Assembly: GCA_963922205.1 (NCBI GenBank)
Contig: CAWUHX010000130.1
Location: forward strand, 908,618 to 972,617
DNA from: Romanomermis culicivorax
Lineage: Eukaryota > Nematoda > Enoplea > Mermithida > Mermithidae
Length of the DNA: 64,000 nt
Reading direction: 5' to 3'
The notes beneath the pieces are model-generated. The model was not told the origin of the DNA. It made no database searches and worked only from the letters and a program-made list of their open reading frames with translations. The translations under genes and the position numbers were made by a program. This document shows, one piece after another, positions 25,471 to 53,975 of this stretch (the first letter of the stretch is position 1; each line of letters opens with the position of its first letter).

Positions 25471-26080
25471 TGTACCTCCAGAAATTTAAAAAAAAACTCA
25501 TACTTCTACCTGAAAATGTCAATTTTTTGATTAAAAAACTGTTTTCTTGGCATTTCACACCACTAGGGGTTGTTAGACTTTTCACGCTTTTTTGTGGAAT
25601 AATTTGAATTTTTTTTTTCCTTAAAAATGCTCTGAACTTTTGGGCATCTACAACCCTCCACTCCTTAAAAAATCGATCTACACCTGTGTACCTGGAGCAC
25701 TCCATCACATGTCAGGTTTGGTTGATACCATTTTAATACTTTGTTCCTACCAATTTGAAAAAGTCACTATCAATTGTCGATATTTCTTAGAGTTTTCAGA
25801 TTCTTTGAAATTTTGATTAGGATGATTGATCCACATTTTTGATACTACAGGTGCACCGGGTAGTATATTTTGAAATTATATCCTACAGGTCTAAAATTTT
25901 AAGAACATTGGGTTCAGGTCTAATTTTGAAATTTTAAGAAAATTGGGTTGAGGTCAGGGTCCAAGTTCAGGTCCTACAAAATGGTCAGGTAATTTTGAGT
26001 TTTGTCCTAGGTCCAAGCTTCTGATATGTTTATACTGTCAGTAGCATACCCAGTCCAGGTTTGTGATTGGTATCCTACAG
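25471..26080. other. Intergenic DNA, no gene recognised
   Basis: Holds an inverted GGACCC-type repeat stretch (about 25,860-26,020) and otherwise unremarkable AT-rich sequence. The open frame at 25,466-25,708 on the minus strand shows no recognisable domain. Confidence 0.5.
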
Positions 26081-26670
26081 TATGATCACATTATATGATG
26101 TGCAGGTGCATTTCACGTTCTGCAATCCCCTGGAAAGTTCTAGAAACTTTCACAATATTCTATAATATTCTGTTCATGTATATTCTACAATGTTCTAGAA
26201 CATTCCCTGACTTTTCATGATGGTATAAGCCGTGACATTTTGCATATTATATATACATGCACATAGGGGGGTAGGGGGAAAACAACCTTACCAGAAATCC
26301 CGGCCACCTCCCCGGCCCCAAAAATAGTCAAACACACCATTGAACTTTTTTCGAGCCCGTTTTTTGATCATTTTTGTGCGTAGTTTGTATGAAAAACAAG
26401 CTTTCAGAACTTTTTTTTGGTTTGTTGCTGACACACCCCCCCTACCCACTGGAAAAAAGTCCAAGGACCCTCCCCCCTAGAAAATTGTTGCCGTGTATCT
26501 CTGATATCATTTGTTCATATATTTTTCTATTCAGTACATTACTACTGTATGTTGTGTTAGTTAGCCTTATTAAACTTAGCTATTTACAAGCTAGTATTCC
26601 AGTTGGATATTCACAGTTTATCCCATGGCTAATCTATTTTTAACCTAGTCTAGTCTTTATTCAAGATGCA
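26081..26670 (+). mobile_element. Heat-shock-element repeat (HSE-R), copy A, interrupted
   Basis: Starts TATGATCACATTATATGATG. It carries GGAAAGTTCTAGAAACTTTC (26,132-26,151), TGTTCTAGAACATTCC (26,191-26,206) and then TATAAG (26,224-26,229). After a 250-bp ACATGCAC MITE insertion it resumes at about 26,504 (GTTAGTTAGCCTTATTAAAC) and ends in TTATTCAAGATGCAA. The second part matches inverted sequence at 52,835-53,000, which shows that the insertion split one element. NTTCNNGAANNTTCN is the consensus bound by heat shock factor. Confidence 0.7.
26252..26500 (+). mobile_element. ACATGCAC MITE inserted in HSE-R copy A
   Basis: Begins ATACATGCACATAGGGGGGT and ends GAAAATTGTTGCCGTGTAT. The flanking halves of the host repeat are contiguous in copy C at 52,835-53,205. 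Confidence 0.75.
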
Positions 26671-26736
26671 ATGGTCTGCGGGTCGAGGGCTCCATTTTTT
26701 GAAGCCCACATTAGGAAAAAGACATACTTTTGCGCC

Positions 26737-26996
26737 AGACATGCAGGGCCAGAATTTTCCAGGGAGGAGGGTCGATGGACCCTTTTCCCTGGGGGTAGGG
26801 GCTTGGGTAAGCAAAAAAAATAAAAAAAGTTCTAAAAGCCGATTTTTCATACAAAATATGCGCAAAAATTATGAAAAAAGCTGTCTCAAAAAAAGTTCAG
26901 ACGAGGGTGTTTTGACAATTTTTTTCGGCCAGGGGGGTGGCCAAGGTCTCAGGTATGGGAATTTACCCCCCCTAACCCCCCTATGTGCATGTATGT
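26737..26996 (-). mobile_element. ACATGCAC MITE, inverted copy
   Basis: CAGACATGCAGGGCCAGAAT at the left and CTATGTGCATGTATG at the right. It lies in opposite orientation to the copy 240 bp to its left. Confidence 0.75.
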
Positions 26997-28540: not shown

Positions 28541-28915
28541 ATGTGTTATATTGTGTGTTATAATAAAGCATTTCCCCATTTTTATGCCATTATACAGGCC
28601 AAAAATCAGACAACAAAAAAGAGTTATTACAATCAGCCCAGGATTTACCAAAATATATACAAGGTTACCCTGCCAATATGTTTTATTTCATTTAAGGCGA
28701 ACTGAAAGGCTTTTTTTGATTCTAATGCTCGTTTTTATATCAACCTGAATTAATTAGAATGATCAAGCTCCATTTCGGGAGCATTCAGGTGATAAAATGC
28801 AACTGCTCATTGAAATTATGATTCAATTTTCCAATTAATCATGGATTCATTATCGCAGTAGTGGAGGAATATTCAGCCACAAAACATTTTATATATTCAT
28901 TCTCAATAAGGAAAA
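28541..28915. other. Upstream region of the chemoreceptor gene
   Basis: AT-rich, no gene. No clear spliced-leader acceptor or TATA box stands out before the ATG at 28,916. Confidence 0.45.
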
Positions 28916-31900
28916 ATGTCCAGCTTAATTGTCGCTCTTGGTATAACTTATATGGTATTGGGCACAATTGGAATGACCATAAATTTCAGCGTTTGCTTGT
29001 TGATGGGTTTGAGTAAAAAATTGAAGAATCCGACTTACACGTATATGGTCAACCATTTGGTGTCCGATATGTTTTGCCTATTTCCGATTAGCATTTATAC
29101 CGGCTTCTGTATGCTCATACAAGAAAAATATATCGAACGATTCATGTCAGTTTTTGTGGATTTAGGTGAGCAATGCTTACAGTGTTGAATCTGTTTTCAA
29201 ACTGTTTTTCATCATACAGAAGGGCATGTTAGGCCTACTGAATAGTGACATCTCAGCGGTACCGTGCTGTGCCGCGTGGTGCCTGTTGTCCTATTCATAC
29301 TAACAGGCTGCGCCTCGCAGTGGCTTGTCATACTTTTCCCTGCAGTACCACATGGCGCCGTGGGGCGCCGCTTTTTTACTTTTGGATTTTGCTCTTCTCA
29401 AAAAATGTGTATTGGTTTAGTTGAAACCTGAGAGAGCACCGCAAAAATTACAAAAACCTATTCATACTTAAGGCAATATCGCGCGGCACCAGCCGGCACT
29501 GCGCGGCACCGGCGGGTACAGCGTGGGGCCGTGCAACGAAGTATGACAGGGCCTTTAGTCTCATGAACCAGGTTCTAGTACAGGCATACACATAATGGGG
29601 CCCCAAGGTCTGAGCGAGGTTGGGCCACTTTTTTGGGGCTGGGAATCAGTAATTCCAAAAATTTTTTTTTGGGGGGGGGGGGAGGGGTCTCAAGGAAAAA
29701 AATTTTGATTTTTTCAAGAATAAAGTCCCAAAAATAGTTCAATTCTTTTTCTGAAAAGACCGAAAAGATGTATTCATGGCACGAAGCACCAAGAAAATTC
29801 ACATTTTTTACAATTTTTTGTTCAAAAATTGACATTTTTCAGTATTTTTCCGACCAAAAGTATGGGGGTCCCTACAGCTACCATTGGATTAAAAAATCCT
29901 GGGGGGGGGGGGGCGATCACCCAATGGCTAGCATATGGTCGACGATTTCTGGGGGGAGTCCCATTGCACTCTCCCCCAATTACATGTATGATTACAGGTC
30001 TAACGCAAAATTGATATTCTGTTATCTGGCACATACAGTCTTTCATCCTCTCAGGGTAGATAAGTTGTTTAGGGAAGTTCCGAATACTGCTTGCCGGAGT
30101 TTACTCAGCCCAGTTGACATCTTGGTGATAATGGGGCAAACAAGGAAGTTGTCTTATTTTATTATGAAGTAGGTAGCTGAACAAGTGCTGCTAGTCAGGC
30201 AGATACCAGCCTGTGGAATGCGGCCTTAACTTATCACTAAAAGGCACCTCAAAAGCACCTCTCATATAAGGTAAGCCTCCCTTTGCAGCTCTGATAAAAT
30301 GAGTAGGGGTACCCCTAAAGATTTAAAAACAATAACTTTTCAGCATTTCCACCTTCCATTCTATTTCAAGATTGTTTTGTTTATAAATTTGACCTGCATG
30401 GCTAAACATCATTTCTGAGAGAAGTAAAAGCAGAAGTAGTGCGCCATGACTTCTTAAAACACATGCTAAAATTTCAAAAGTTCTTTGATTCAATCATCAC
30501 CAAAATGGAGGTTCTCCGAAGATTCCAGGTCTTTTTGTAATTTTTAATTTTGTTATAACTGGAAACCCTAATTTCCTTTAGCCCATTGATTTTTGATCCT
30601 GGTCTATGCTTCAGAGTAGATTGTGGTTCAGCATTGACTATGCTTCAGCATTGCCTATGCTCCAGTATTGTCTATTCATCATGATTTCCTATGCTTCAGC
30701 ATCACTTATGCATCAAGATTACCTATTCTAGAGCATTAGCTATGCTCAAGATTTGGGAGTGCTCTAGGAATGCCCATTCTTCAGCATTGCTCATGCTCCA
30801 GCATTGTCTATGCTTTAGCATCTCTTATACTTCAGGATTGCCTCTTCTCTAGCATTGGCTATGCTTGAGTGTTGCTCACCCTTTAGCATTACCTATGCCC
30901 CAATATTGCCTGTGCTCCAGCTTTGTCTATGCTACAGCATTGCCTGTGCTCCAGCTTTGCCCCTGCTTCAGCATTGACTACGCTTCAGCATTGCCTATGC
31001 TTCAGCAGTGCCCATACTTCAGCATTGCTTATGCTTCAAGGTTACATTTTCTATGCTGTAAGATTGTCCATGCTTTAGGATTGCCTATTCTCCAGCACTG
31101 CCTGGCCTTCAACATTGCATATGCTTCAGTATTGCCTATGCTTTAGCATTGCCTATGCTTCAGCATTGATTATGGTTCAGAATATCCTCTGCTCCAGCAT
31201 CGCATGTGCTTCAAGATTACCTATTCTTCACCATTGCATATGCTTCTGCGTTGTCTATGCTCCAGCACTGCCTACACTTCAGCATTGCTTATGCAACAGA
31301 ATCGCAAATTTTTAAGCATCACTTATGCACCAGCATTGCCTATATTTGAGCATTGCCTATGCATCAGTGTTGTCATTTATTCAGCTATACTCCAGCATTG
31401 TCTATGTTTCAGGATTGCCTCTCATCCAGCATCCGCAATGCATCGGCATAGTGTATGCTTCAAGATCCCCTATTCTCCAGCATTGCCCAAGCTAGAGCAT
31501 AGCTTCAGCTGCAGCATCCTCTAGGCTCCAGCATTTCATATGCTTCAGGATTAGCTGTTCTTCAACATTGCCTATGCTGCAGTGTTACCAATATTTCAGG
31601 ATTACTCCCTAACACCTAACCCTTAACTACTCGACTCTTATCCTTGAGCATCAATGAGTGTGTAAAGCACAGTATTTTCCAAAGTTATACCTGCAGGTCC
31701 TTGTAGCTACAATACCATTAGTCATCTCTGAGAAGGCCTACAAAAGGCTTATTCTTACTCCATTCTTCCAACTCCAACAATTTTTAATGCTCTTGTTGTA
31801 TTTTCAGATGGGTCGGAGACTGATGAGTCACGGGCGGGATTGGGATCCCAGGATTCGTCCTTAACGTACGTCTTTCCCATGCTCACGCTTACCGGATCAA

Positions 31901-33052
31901 CCTAACTAATTGTACTTAAACCCAACACTAATTATCCCACCAATTAAGGAAAAGAGGTTTCCTTAATTGTCTCCTGAGCTTAATAAACGCAAGAACGGAA
32001 GTCCTTTCTTCAATTTTACTTACGCAACAAAAGATCACTTACTTACAAACGTGAAAGGCGAGAAAAAGGCAAATAATTTTCACTCCCACGCACTGGAGAG
32101 AAAACAGAAAATGACGTGTGTGCGGGGAGGCGACGAGTGAATATAAAGTGGCCAGCGGGGCACACATTCAGTAATGAAAAATATACGAATAAAGATACAC
32201 TGAGAGAGAGCCAGCACACACGTACTGATGTGCGCTACAGTAAGATGACTGTTGATGGTCCGCGTTGCTCACTCCACTTACCTGCGGGCCTCATGCGCTG
32301 TTGGACAAAAATGATAAAAATTGGTGGAAACACACTACAACACCCTACTCCCTGATACTGTAATTCTATTACTCACACTTCCCAATTTTCCTACAGGTTG
32401 GTATCCCAGCGGTTTTTTCTTCATGTGCATTGGCGCTACCCGTATCATTGCCATTGGCTTCAAAACTCCATTGGAAAAAATTTTGACCCGGAAAGTAAAA
32501 ATTGTAACCCTAGCCGCCATATGGACACCCTACACGTTGATCACTGGTGGTTACATGTTCAATGATCGGCAACCAGCTGGTCTCAATTTCCAGGTTTATA
32601 CCTGGTGGTATATTACAGAAGTACGATATGGTTATTATATGAATATTTACTACGCTTATCACGGTATAGCGACATCAATAGCCATTGTTGCTATCGACAC
32701 AGTGGCCATTATTTTGATCAGACGAAAATTGCACACAGTTCATCCAAACATCAGATCAATGGCCAATCGAAAACGTGAGATGAAGCTACTTATGCAATGT
32801 TTGATAACTAGCATATTTTATAGTTTCACGGCTTTGGTATACAGTACCATGTACGAATCGGATTGGGGCACATCATTGGAATTGCAATACTATGCTATAT
32901 TCCATTTGATATGGATAGTGAATCACAGTTGTAGTTCGGTGATCTACTTTTTGTACAATCAAGATTTGATACGCACTGTGAAGAAATTTTTGTCGGTGGG
33001 CAATTCGATCCAAAGTATAAAGACTACTGTAGCACAAAAGACTGTGAAGTAA
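28916..33052 (+). CDS. Nematode serpentine chemoreceptor (Srx-like 7TM), 2 exons
   Basis: Exons 28,916-29,165 and 32,397-33,052 join at a GTGAGC donor and a CTACAG acceptor in phase 1, giving 301 aa, a normal length for nematode chemoreceptors. TM1 (about 4-28) is followed by a basic loop, LSKKLKNPTYTY, and TM2. TM3 ends in ATRIIAIGF (97-105), where the Srx/Srsx groups usually have an NR-type motif. Later hydrophobic segments lie around 118-133, 165-190, 213-233 and 245-262, and the last ends NHSCSSVIYFLYNQD. Such proteins sit in sensory cilia and couple to G proteins; the ligand is unknown. The intron (3.2 kb) holds a minisatellite, a SINE-like element and a solo LTR. Assignment to Srx rather than a neighbouring family is tentative. 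No stop or frameshift is seen. Confidence 0.88.
29240..29560. other. GC-rich repeat in chemoreceptor intron
   Basis: A locally GC-rich stretch with imperfect GCGCGGCACCGG words near 29,470-29,530 and related words near 29,255-29,370. It may be a small mobile element, since CATACTT and AAGTATGACAGG are inverted near its ends. It is not coding. Confidence 0.4.
29561..30300 (+). mobile_element. SINE-like element split by an insertion
   Basis: The head phrase GAACCAGGTTCTAGTACAGG (from 29,566) and the body from about 30,030 to 30,290 match the element at 25,066-25,470. About 400 bp of other sequence, with poly-G runs at 29,665-29,680 and 29,898-29,912, lie between them. Confidence 0.55.
30590..31600. 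repeat. 18-bp minisatellite TATGCTTCAGCATTGCC, ~1 kb
   Basis: Some 50 or more degenerate units of about 18 bp, with variants in TTCAGC versus TCCAGC. It gives open frames rich in A, S, Y, C and L, which are artefacts. It lies inside the chemoreceptor intron. Confidence 0.92.
31794..32342 (-). mobile_element. Solo LTR in chemoreceptor intron, near-TSD CTCT/CCCT
   Basis: 549 bp from TGTTGTATTTTCAGATGG to AAACACACTACAACA. The flanks are CTCT (31,790-31,793) and CCCT (32,343-32,346), a 4-bp duplication with one change. It ends 54 bp before the second chemoreceptor exon. Confidence 0.82.
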
Positions 33053-49075: not shown

Positions 49076-49440
49076 ACCATTGGCAATCTGTATCATTTTT
49101 GCATTTCTGGTACCAATCTGCCATCTACATCCACAACCTTTGTTTTATATGTAGTACACATACATTCATATTTTTGAGAATTGTTGCATCTATTTGGCAG
49201 ATTTTTAGTATTTTTGCACATATTTCAACATTTTTTCTCTTTTCAGGTACAGTTTTTATTAGTTTCCACCAATAAGGATCAGTGATGGAAGATTTAGGAT
49301 TATGCGATGAATTTGATTATACCCTAGAAAATGGTGGCTGATGTTATCCAATTCATGCATTTGAAACATCATTTCTGGAGTATAAAACTGTATAATTTTG
49401 CATAGATCAGTGTTATTGGTTACTGATATATATCTTTCAG
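49076..49440. other. Intergenic DNA
   Basis: AT-rich, no feature recognised. Confidence 0.5.
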
Positions 49441-49615
49441 TATGATCACATAATATGATGTGCAGGTACATTTCATGTGCTGCGTTTTCCTGGAAACTTA
49501 TAGACACTTCCGTGATATTCTATAATATTCTGTTCATATATATTCGACAATGTTCTAGAATATTCTGTAAATTTCCATGATAGTATATAAGCAGTGTGAA
49601 ATGTAATCTATGTTT
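49441..49615 (+). mobile_element. HSE-R repeat, copy B (truncated)
   Basis: TATGATCACATAATATGATG start, then CCTGGAAACTT, TGTTCTAGAATATTCTG (49,551-49,567) and TATATAAG (49,584-49,591). The second half present in copies A and C is missing. NTTCNNGAANNTTCN is satisfied exactly. Confidence 0.7.
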
Positions 49616-50238
49616 CAATGACTGAGTTTACATGTTGACATTTTTGTTCAATAAAGTTTGATAATTGAGAAATTTTTTGCTCATATTTTGGTGATTTTGC
49701 GTATTCTATTCAGCAGAAACTGCTGATGTTCATTTGCAGCCTCTATTCATGCCACATAGAACAACGGACTCATGCAGGATACAGCACATTTAGCTAAACT
49801 GATGCTCTATTTATATTCCTACAGTAATTCGTAAACATAATTAACTAATCCTGACACCATTTCCAACTTGTATATATATTTTTTTTGCCATGTGTTTTGC
49901 ATAAATGAACAGTGTGCATCATTGTTGGAACATTGTCAAGTAATTTTCATTTCAATCTATCACTCGCAGGACGCATTTTCTACTCAGCAACAGTGAATAA
50001 AAAGATCTAAATTGCGCTTAGAACAAGAATGCTCCAATTACAAAGATCCAATCCACCATACTGTTTACGTGGTACGTCACCTGCGCTCCAGCGTATTGGC
50101 AAGACATCTCGTCATCCAGCTCTTGGCAACTGCTAATTTACTGCTTTGATGAATAAAAGATAAGAAATTAACGTGAGTTATCCGAGCGAAGAATACATTC
50201 CACCGTTCACTCAATAGTCTACTGCATGAGTTGAAAAA
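49616..50238. other. Upstream region of the cysteine-rich peptide gene
   Basis: No repeat recognised. AATAAA near 49,650 and 50,153 have no gene in front of them that I can identify. No clear promoter motif is seen. Confidence 0.4.
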
Positions 50239-52834: not shown

Positions 52835-53201
52835 TAGTGTTGTGTCTTGAATAATAACTGGACTAAGTTGAAAATAGATTGGCCTAGGGATAATTTGTAA
52901 ATATCCAACAGGAATACTTGCTGGTAAATAGCTGAGTTTAATAAGGCTAACTAACATCAAACCACTAAAAAGTACAATAGATAAGAGGAATGAATATACA
53001 ATACAACACGACTTATATACTATCACGGAAAATCACGGAATGTTCTGGAACATTTTAGAGTGATATAGAATATTGAGGAAGCTTCTAGATTGTTCCAGGA
53101 AAAAGCAATACACAAAATGTACCTGGACATCTGATTACATGATCCTACTGTAAGGTATGTATTACTCGTACCTGCACATCATGTACCATGATCATACTGT
53201 A
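52835..53201 (-). mobile_element. HSE-R repeat, copy C (longest uninterrupted)
   Basis: On the minus strand it reads GATGTGCAGGTAC (with a local duplication), then TTCCTGGAACAATCTAGAAG (53,083-53,102), AATGTTCCAGAACATTCC (53,037-53,054), TATATAAG (53,012-53,019) and GTTAGTTAGCCTTATTAAAC. It ends near TTATTCAAGACACAAC. The order of HSE array, TATA box and ~170 bp of downstream sequence is as in copy A. Confidence 0.7.
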
Positions 53202-53975
53202 TGTAACGACCAGATTTTGTGAAGCACTTTACTTTACCCAATTACAGATGGTTGAAACAGCTACAACGGAGCAGGGGAATGGAAATACGGGGGCTATACC
53301 CGGATAATAATAATCGAGGGCTGCTTTGAGACGTCGACACAACAAAGGGGGAAGGTGGCGAGTACAACAACGGCTTAACTGCTTCCAAAAAAGGGACACT
53401 CGCTCACAATATAAAAACGCTTGCAAATAAACGGGGTGCGGGGTCGAAAAATGGAGAATTACAACAATAATAAAATCACGCTTTGCTTCTCTTTAAATAC
53501 GACGTTTTTGGCCACTCCCTGGGCCTCGCGGGAGGTCGTGCTTCTGTCCATCTTCTTCCGCCAATCCTCTCTTCCTGCTTTACTATTCATGCTTATTTAG
53601 TCACGCCCTTTAACGCTTTTCTAGTATGGCATGCTTTCCGTGTCTTGCTTGCTTCCTATGGTGGGCTTAGCCACACCTCTGTGCTTCTGTGCATGCTTCC
53701 TGTATCTGTTTCTCTGTGTACACATGTTTTGTGGGCCGTCACTACCATTGCACTTGAGACTACTGTCTGACGGGGCTTTTACTTATTTTACTGTGTGCAG
53801 GTGTTGTTTACGATTTTTACGGGGGATTACGGTAGCCGTGGAATGTGTAGTTTAGTGTAGGTTCTAGGGGACCAGCTGCGGTTTGTGCAAATTAATTGGG
53901 GCATCTTAATTGGGCTACCGGGTTGTGAACGGATCAAAATAAAGTACTTCACGTAATTTTATAGGAATGTTTGGG
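53202..53975. mobile_element. Element with inverted ends, GC-richer interior
   Basis: TTTTGTGAAGCACTTTACTTT (53,216-53,236) is matched by inverted AAATAAAGTACTTCACGTAA (53,938-53,957). The interior differs in composition from its surroundings, with GC-rich segments at 53,330-53,370 and 53,515-53,545. It begins TGTAACGACC directly after HSE-R copy C. It may be a solo LTR or a DNA element; no target duplication was found. Confidence 0.5.

Follow-up and report, generated by a model that had tools for sequence, protein, structure and literature searches.

A dispersed LTR-like repeat with phased heat-shock elements and a TATA box in the nematode Romanomermis culicivorax

Copies of the repeat and neighbouring features in the window

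The window, i.e. the whole 64,000-nucleotide stretch of Romanomermis culicivorax DNA analysed here, contains copies A, B and C of a dispersed repeat in which a row of heat-shock element (HSE) pentamers is followed by a TATA box. The features of these copies are as follows.

26064-26673, plus strand: copy A, probable solo long terminal repeat (LTR) split by an insert (from alignment to the genome copy L031, ends by eye)
26059-26063: GTTTG, the 5 bp to the left of copy A, a candidate target-site duplication (by eye)
26674-26678: GTCTG, the 5 bp to the right of copy A, a candidate target-site duplication (by eye)
26133-26205, plus strand: HSE array of copy A, with 15 slots that share a single 5-bp phase
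26224-26229, plus strand: TATAAG of copy A (family form TATATAAG)
about 26243-26519: insert, an unrelated high-copy G-rich repeat just 3' of the TATA box of copy A (from a gap in the LTR alignment and repeat matches; edges approximate)
26569-26574, plus strand: ATTAAA, candidate poly(A) signal of the copy A LTR (present in most aligned copies; function predicted)
49424-49597, plus strand: copy B, 5' half of the putative LTR (U3, HSE array, TATA box) with the 3' half replaced
49543-49580, plus strand: best-preserved stretch within the copy B HSE array
49584-49591, plus strand: TATATAAG of copy B
52838-53212, minus strand: copy C, putative full-length LTR with two left-end repeat units (left end by eye)
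53028-53098, minus strand: HSE array of copy C
53012-53019, minus strand: TATATAAG of copy C

In the alignment of copy A to L031, LTR positions 49-225 correspond to 26063-26242 and positions 243-392 to 26520-26671. Without the insert copy A is a repeat of about 0.4 kb, whose ends were set by eye from those of the family. The initial annotation had given its limits as 26081-26670; the element is real, but it runs from 26064 to 26673 and includes the foreign insert. Its two flanks are identical in four of five bases. The first HSE string starts at 26132 and the second, TTCTAGAACATTC, runs from 26191 to 26205, and midway along the array, at 26168-26183, orientations cease to alternate while the phase is kept. 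Both strings, followed 18 bp later by TATAAG at 26224, had been recognised correctly from the outset, as had the recurrence of the same order, now placed at 49.4-49.6 kb (plus strand) and 53.2-52.8 kb (minus strand). The top listed five- and six-pentamer scores of the window all lie within copies A, B and C. The HSE score of a single copy is borderline (16 of 18, with maxima of 13-16 in 20 simulated windows, one of them at 16).

The LTR part of copy B stops just beyond the TATA box. Here (49424-49750) the 5' half of the LTR is fused to other sequence containing AATAAA, and this 3' part reappears at L046 and L047, two further places out of the 46 matches listed from our second genome search. 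Since the join in copy B is common to these two, a chimeric repeat may exist that uses the LTR promoter. The flanks of copy C, AAATC and CTATC, agree in only three of five bases.

Srt chemoreceptor families are known from nematodes, and Srt models matched two of the nine window reading frames scanned, one with an E-value of 5e-12, above the cut-off, and a shorter one with 4e-4, below it. The two Srt-like pieces (28910-29188 and 32318-33052) are plus-strand sequences located downstream from copy A and probably belong to one Srt-type chemoreceptor-like gene. Copy A is located 2.2 kb upstream of the first recognised Srt-like exon (28910-29188) and on the same strand, a single case that is not evidence of regulation.

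The G-rich repeat inserted in copy A recurs in inverted orientation at 26736-26994, and related sequences are present near 18.1-18.3, 20.2-20.9 and 34.5-35.0 kb, so that both orientations occur in the window. It is very abundant in the genome (3550 first-look candidates, of which the best 40 were scored). Nine tRNA-like matches were found at 28.1-28.5, 38.2, 41.9-42.2, 50.7, 52.5 and 56.7-57.1 kb, several of them paired about 0.3 kb apart; they may represent tRNA-derived repeats rather than genes. Long simple-repeat tracts occur at 10.86-12.6 kb and at 48.42-48.81 kb; in translation they give open frames made up of one or two residues.

Extent, ends and class of the repeat family

The genome searched comprised 359 Mb in 595 contigs. 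With copy C as query the best 40 of 1504 loose candidates were scored and gave 41 matches, and a second search, in which the best 40 of 795 candidates were scored, gave 46 matches that partly overlapped the 41. Identity to copy C was 75-82% among the 41 matches listed, leaving aside the self-match and one match at 73%. The proposal of the initial annotation that a mobile repeat is spreading a heat-responsive promoter can be followed only in part: this is a dispersed repeat with sites of the heat shock factor (HSF) type and a TATA box, but present spreading finds no support in identities of this range, and no intact parent was seen in the sequences inspected.

Thirty copies with their flanks entered a first alignment. 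For the HSE region 59 loci were searched, of which 58 yielded 65 copies; L025 and L041 are one place, present twice in this set and counted once in the final set of 64 copies from 57 loci. Left out of both sets were L051, which is the same place as L023, and L037, L015 and L074, near-copies of L028, L012 and L068, respectively. Several partial HSE-bearing copies lie close together on one strand at C96:989528-989894 and C8:1525970-1526685, while L055 and L061 hold four and three array copies. Such clusters may have grown through local duplication.

In the 30 aligned copies the family has sharp limits, starting with TG and finishing with CA, and a few copies are truncated or altered at one end. 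No terminal inverted repeats were seen by eye in this alignment, in which the ends show no pairing beyond TG/CA; a MITE or other inverted-repeat DNA transposon was set aside on this ground. Exact 5-bp direct repeats flank eight of the 30 copies and are absent in the other 22; swapped flanks give an expectation of 0.34%. Two loci are near-duplicates of two others, and without duplicates the count is seven of 28; one of the seven distinct copies, L018, has flanks in common with L023. When one mismatch is tolerated 14 of 30 copies qualify, compared with 3.2% for swapped flanks, and none of the 30 copies has exact flanking repeats of 3, 4, 6 or 7 bp. Both the TG...CA ends and the 5-bp duplications are typical of integration of the LTR type, and we therefore assign the repeat to the LTR class, one of the options left by the initial annotation.

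Helitrons have ends of the type TC...CTRR and insert between A and T without duplication, and to our knowledge target-site duplications are not a feature of theirs. The comparison with Helitrons, also drawn in the initial annotation, had to be given up, since it agrees neither with the TG...CA ends nor with the 5-bp duplications.

The left end of the LTR consists of one to three units of approximately 48 bp, their number varying among the 30 copies. These units (e.g. 26076-26107) contain a near-palindrome, GATCACAT...ATGATGTGC, a possible site for a second factor. Inside the repeat ATTAAA follows about 80 bp beyond TATATAAG and is common to most aligned copies.

On inspection the copies appear to be solo LTRs, most likely remnants of an ancient retrotransposon family. 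Beside 42 loci, or 41 places, whose 3' end is intact, in flanks of mostly 1.5 kb, we saw no paired LTR with a primer-binding site and a coding interior, and no coding parent was seen by eye in the reading frames of four fetched stretches. A blast comparison of the 42 loci revealed one group with common DNA adjacent to the LTR, to the right in L018, L056 and L069 and to the left in these and L023. In part of the pairs the common DNA flanks the LTR on both sides, and it probably represents another amplified repeat in which the LTR is nested rather than an internal region. L055 and L061, which by eye are similar on both sides, are read as a case of nesting or duplication. Among the remaining loci no common region abutting the LTR was found in these flanks. 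A pair of copies about 220 bp apart at C4:146-147 kb was considered as an LTR-spacer-LTR miniature and set aside as probably a cluster instead, because its first copy is broken and bears another insert.

Phase, conservation and context of the HSE array

In the family majority the interval from the first GAA to TATATAAG contains 17 pentamer slots, which lie in a single 5-bp phase. All eight even slots read TTC, and the odd slots read GAA, GAA, CAA, TAA, GTA, CAA, GAA, TGA and TGA, several of the middle ones (CAA, TAA, GTA) being weak HSE cores. Scored for strict alternation the majority reaches 44 of 51, whereas 300 simulations gave a mean of 22.5 and a maximum of 28. For this reason it is the array of the whole family, not that of a single copy, which decides against chance. 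Perfect runs of at least three alternating units occur in 58 of the 64 copies, as against four of 236 background windows of 300 bp taken from the flanks, which possibly include parts of other LTR copies. The longest run is five units in one copy, four in 25, three in 32, two in five and one in one.

Not only the presence of the units but also their conservation sets them apart. The initial annotation had made its proposal depend on pentamers conserved beyond the rest of the repeat, and this is what the 64 copies show, with 0.940 for unit letters, 0.883 for the rest and 0.844 for the spacers. The difference is smaller in the first 30 copies (units 0.931, spacers 0.879, rest 0.888). For the unit letters p is 0.0007 against the rest and 0.0004 against the spacers in the 64 copies, although these column tests are indicative only because the copies are related by descent, with the best-preserved among them over-represented. 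In 47 of 64 copies the length of the array departs from that of the majority by a multiple of five, with zero counted as one (0 in 18, +5 in 21, -10 in seven and -5 in one), and many of these states were surely inherited by subfamily. In the +5 form, to which copy A belongs, the alternation is broken in mid-array and the phase is kept.

There are 30 perfect four-unit elements within 21.9 kb of LTR and one in 271 kb outside, the latter in an hsp70 promoter; for three-unit elements the figures are 113 and seven, respectively. These counts come from a 293-kb sample chosen around LTR copies and accordingly give densities, not shares of the genome; the count of four-unit elements omitted L043 and L044, which overlap with the L012 place.

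The TATA letters TATATAAG are kept at 0.92-0.97 across the family, and 44 of 65 copies contain a TATA-like pattern. The gap between HSE and TATA box is 18 bp in 21 of the 35 copies with a clear three-unit element and TATA[AT]AAG. As a control from the host we used one gene, an intronless hsp70 (C150:196110-197924), which among 43 HSP70 matches is the one that spans the whole profile in a single frame of 654 amino acids. It served in place of a small-hsp gene; the DNA fetched beside four HSP20 matches was intron. Upstream of hsp70 lies TTCTGGAACATTCTAGAA, a perfect four-unit element, with TATATAAG 74 bp further on. In other words, LTR and host hsp70 share the type of element and the TATA box, and the gap between them differs.

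Proposed function of the LTRs and comparison with known systems

The reading we favour, and hold to be probable from the sequence, is that the family consists of solo LTRs of an LTR retrotransposon with an HSF-driven U3 promoter, surviving as portable heat-shock promoters. The LTR would be composed of one to three repeats of about 48 bp, the phased HSE array, a gap of usually 18 bp, TATATAAG, a transcription start expected approximately 25-30 bp past it, ATTAAA and the terminal CA. Under heat or protein-damage stress host HSF would form trimers, and these are predicted to bind the in-phase pentamers and to induce transcription from the TATA box, with ATTAAA, about 80 bp after that box, acting as the putative poly(A) signal. 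As long as the presumed coding parent was present its replication would have been tied to stress, and recombination would then have left solo LTRs that may still be able to act as HSF-responsive promoters. Scattered through the genome there seem to be many copies of what would be a ready-made heat-inducible promoter. We infer on good grounds that the LTRs would respond to heat; any effect on neighbouring genes is likewise presumed. It is conceivable, if rather doubtful, that in this animal an LTR retrotransposon family evolved a phased HSF array of great length and took stress as its cue for replication, that its solo LTRs have become a main source of strong, four-unit HSEs in the host, and that genes, for example the chemoreceptor-like one 2.2 kb downstream from copy A, have thereby come under heat control.

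It might be argued that the retrotransposon once used HSF and is now silent, so that the array of its solo LTRs is a fossil with no present heat response. The divergence of the copies (scored matches mostly at 75-82% to copy C) would agree with this, as would the six of 64 copies whose perfect runs do not exceed two units and the failure to see a parent in the stretches and flanks examined. There is also a precedent in Arabidopsis thaliana, where ONSEN fragments and solo LTRs are described as lacking functional heat elements (0 of 16), as far as the accessible part of that report goes (PMC5059998). Against it stand the 58 of 64 copies that retain at least three perfect in-phase units, a degree of preservation slightly above the expectation from mutation (for the first 30 copies longest runs averaged 3.20, as against 2.86 under the mutation null, only a slight excess). 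We consider the fossil array unlikely.

Far less probable is the view that the rows of TTC and GAA are the by-product of a 10-bp tandem repeat, or sites of another factor, and unrelated to heat. The middle of the array, with its weak cores, does repeat with a period near 10 bp, but the array has perfect multi-unit elements at either end, and unit letters exceed the spacers in conservation even when CpG-like columns are omitted (p = 0.007 against the rest and 0.038 against the spacers); moreover, the host hsp70 has the same type of element together with a TATA box. A non-coding element other than an LTR, such as a DNA transposon that lacks clear inverted repeats and has a heat-shock promoter of its own, would explain why all copies examined stand alone with no LTR pair around a coding interior (in flanks mostly of 1.5 kb), but it is very unlikely given that TG...CA ends, 5-bp duplications, the order of the putative promoter and poly(A) signal and the left-end repeats all fit an LTR.

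If the LTRs are indeed HSF-driven promoters, their full, shortened and decayed arrays constitute a natural series from which it might be learned how many in-phase pentamers HSF needs, and the same series bears on whether the stress response aided the success of the retrotransposon.

Heat-driven LTR retrotransposons are already known from plants, and the spread of HSEs by mobile DNA is known in worms through Helitrons. In ONSEN (ATCOPIA78) and related COPIA LTRs of the Brassicaceae three- and four-unit elements correlate with strong heat induction, and the LTR with its HSF sites couples replication to stress, according to the available parts of these studies (PMC3907296, PMC5059998). The family described here resembles ONSEN in having predicted HSF sites inside a probable retrotransposon LTR, a likeness of layout and logic. 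It differs in that the strong element of ONSEN has four units, compared with 17 slots in one phase here, and in that ONSEN is a plant Copia element with intact copies and measured induction, whereas the present LTRs appear to be solo and are read from sequence.

Among animals, predicted HSF sites in LTRs are also reported for copia and gypsy of Drosophila, but in the sections available these are single matrix hits, with no phased array in the table; of the Drosophila elements under chronic heat only Tirant rose significantly (PMC10745035). Cer1 of Caenorhabditis elegans, a Gypsy/Ty3 element, shares with our family, as we interpret it, the character of a temperature-dependent nematode LTR retrotransposon. 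In the excerpts at hand it is a single intact copy, expressed at 15°C and not at 25°C, and the temperature effect remains in an hsf-1 mutant (PMC3315495). No nematode LTR of the present kind is named in the portion of the open PMC full-text literature that was covered. The HSEs in Helitrons of Caenorhabditis affect nearby genes and are, like our arrays, carried by mobile DNA in a nematode genome, but Helitrons are DNA transposons, and here TG...CA ends, 5-bp duplications, and sites and TATA box within one element were found (PMC6927752, seen in part). An LTR family of animals in which a long HSF array keeps its phase and is joined to a TATA box of its own would unite the plant and the worm systems, since it would distribute complete portable promoters and not loose sites.
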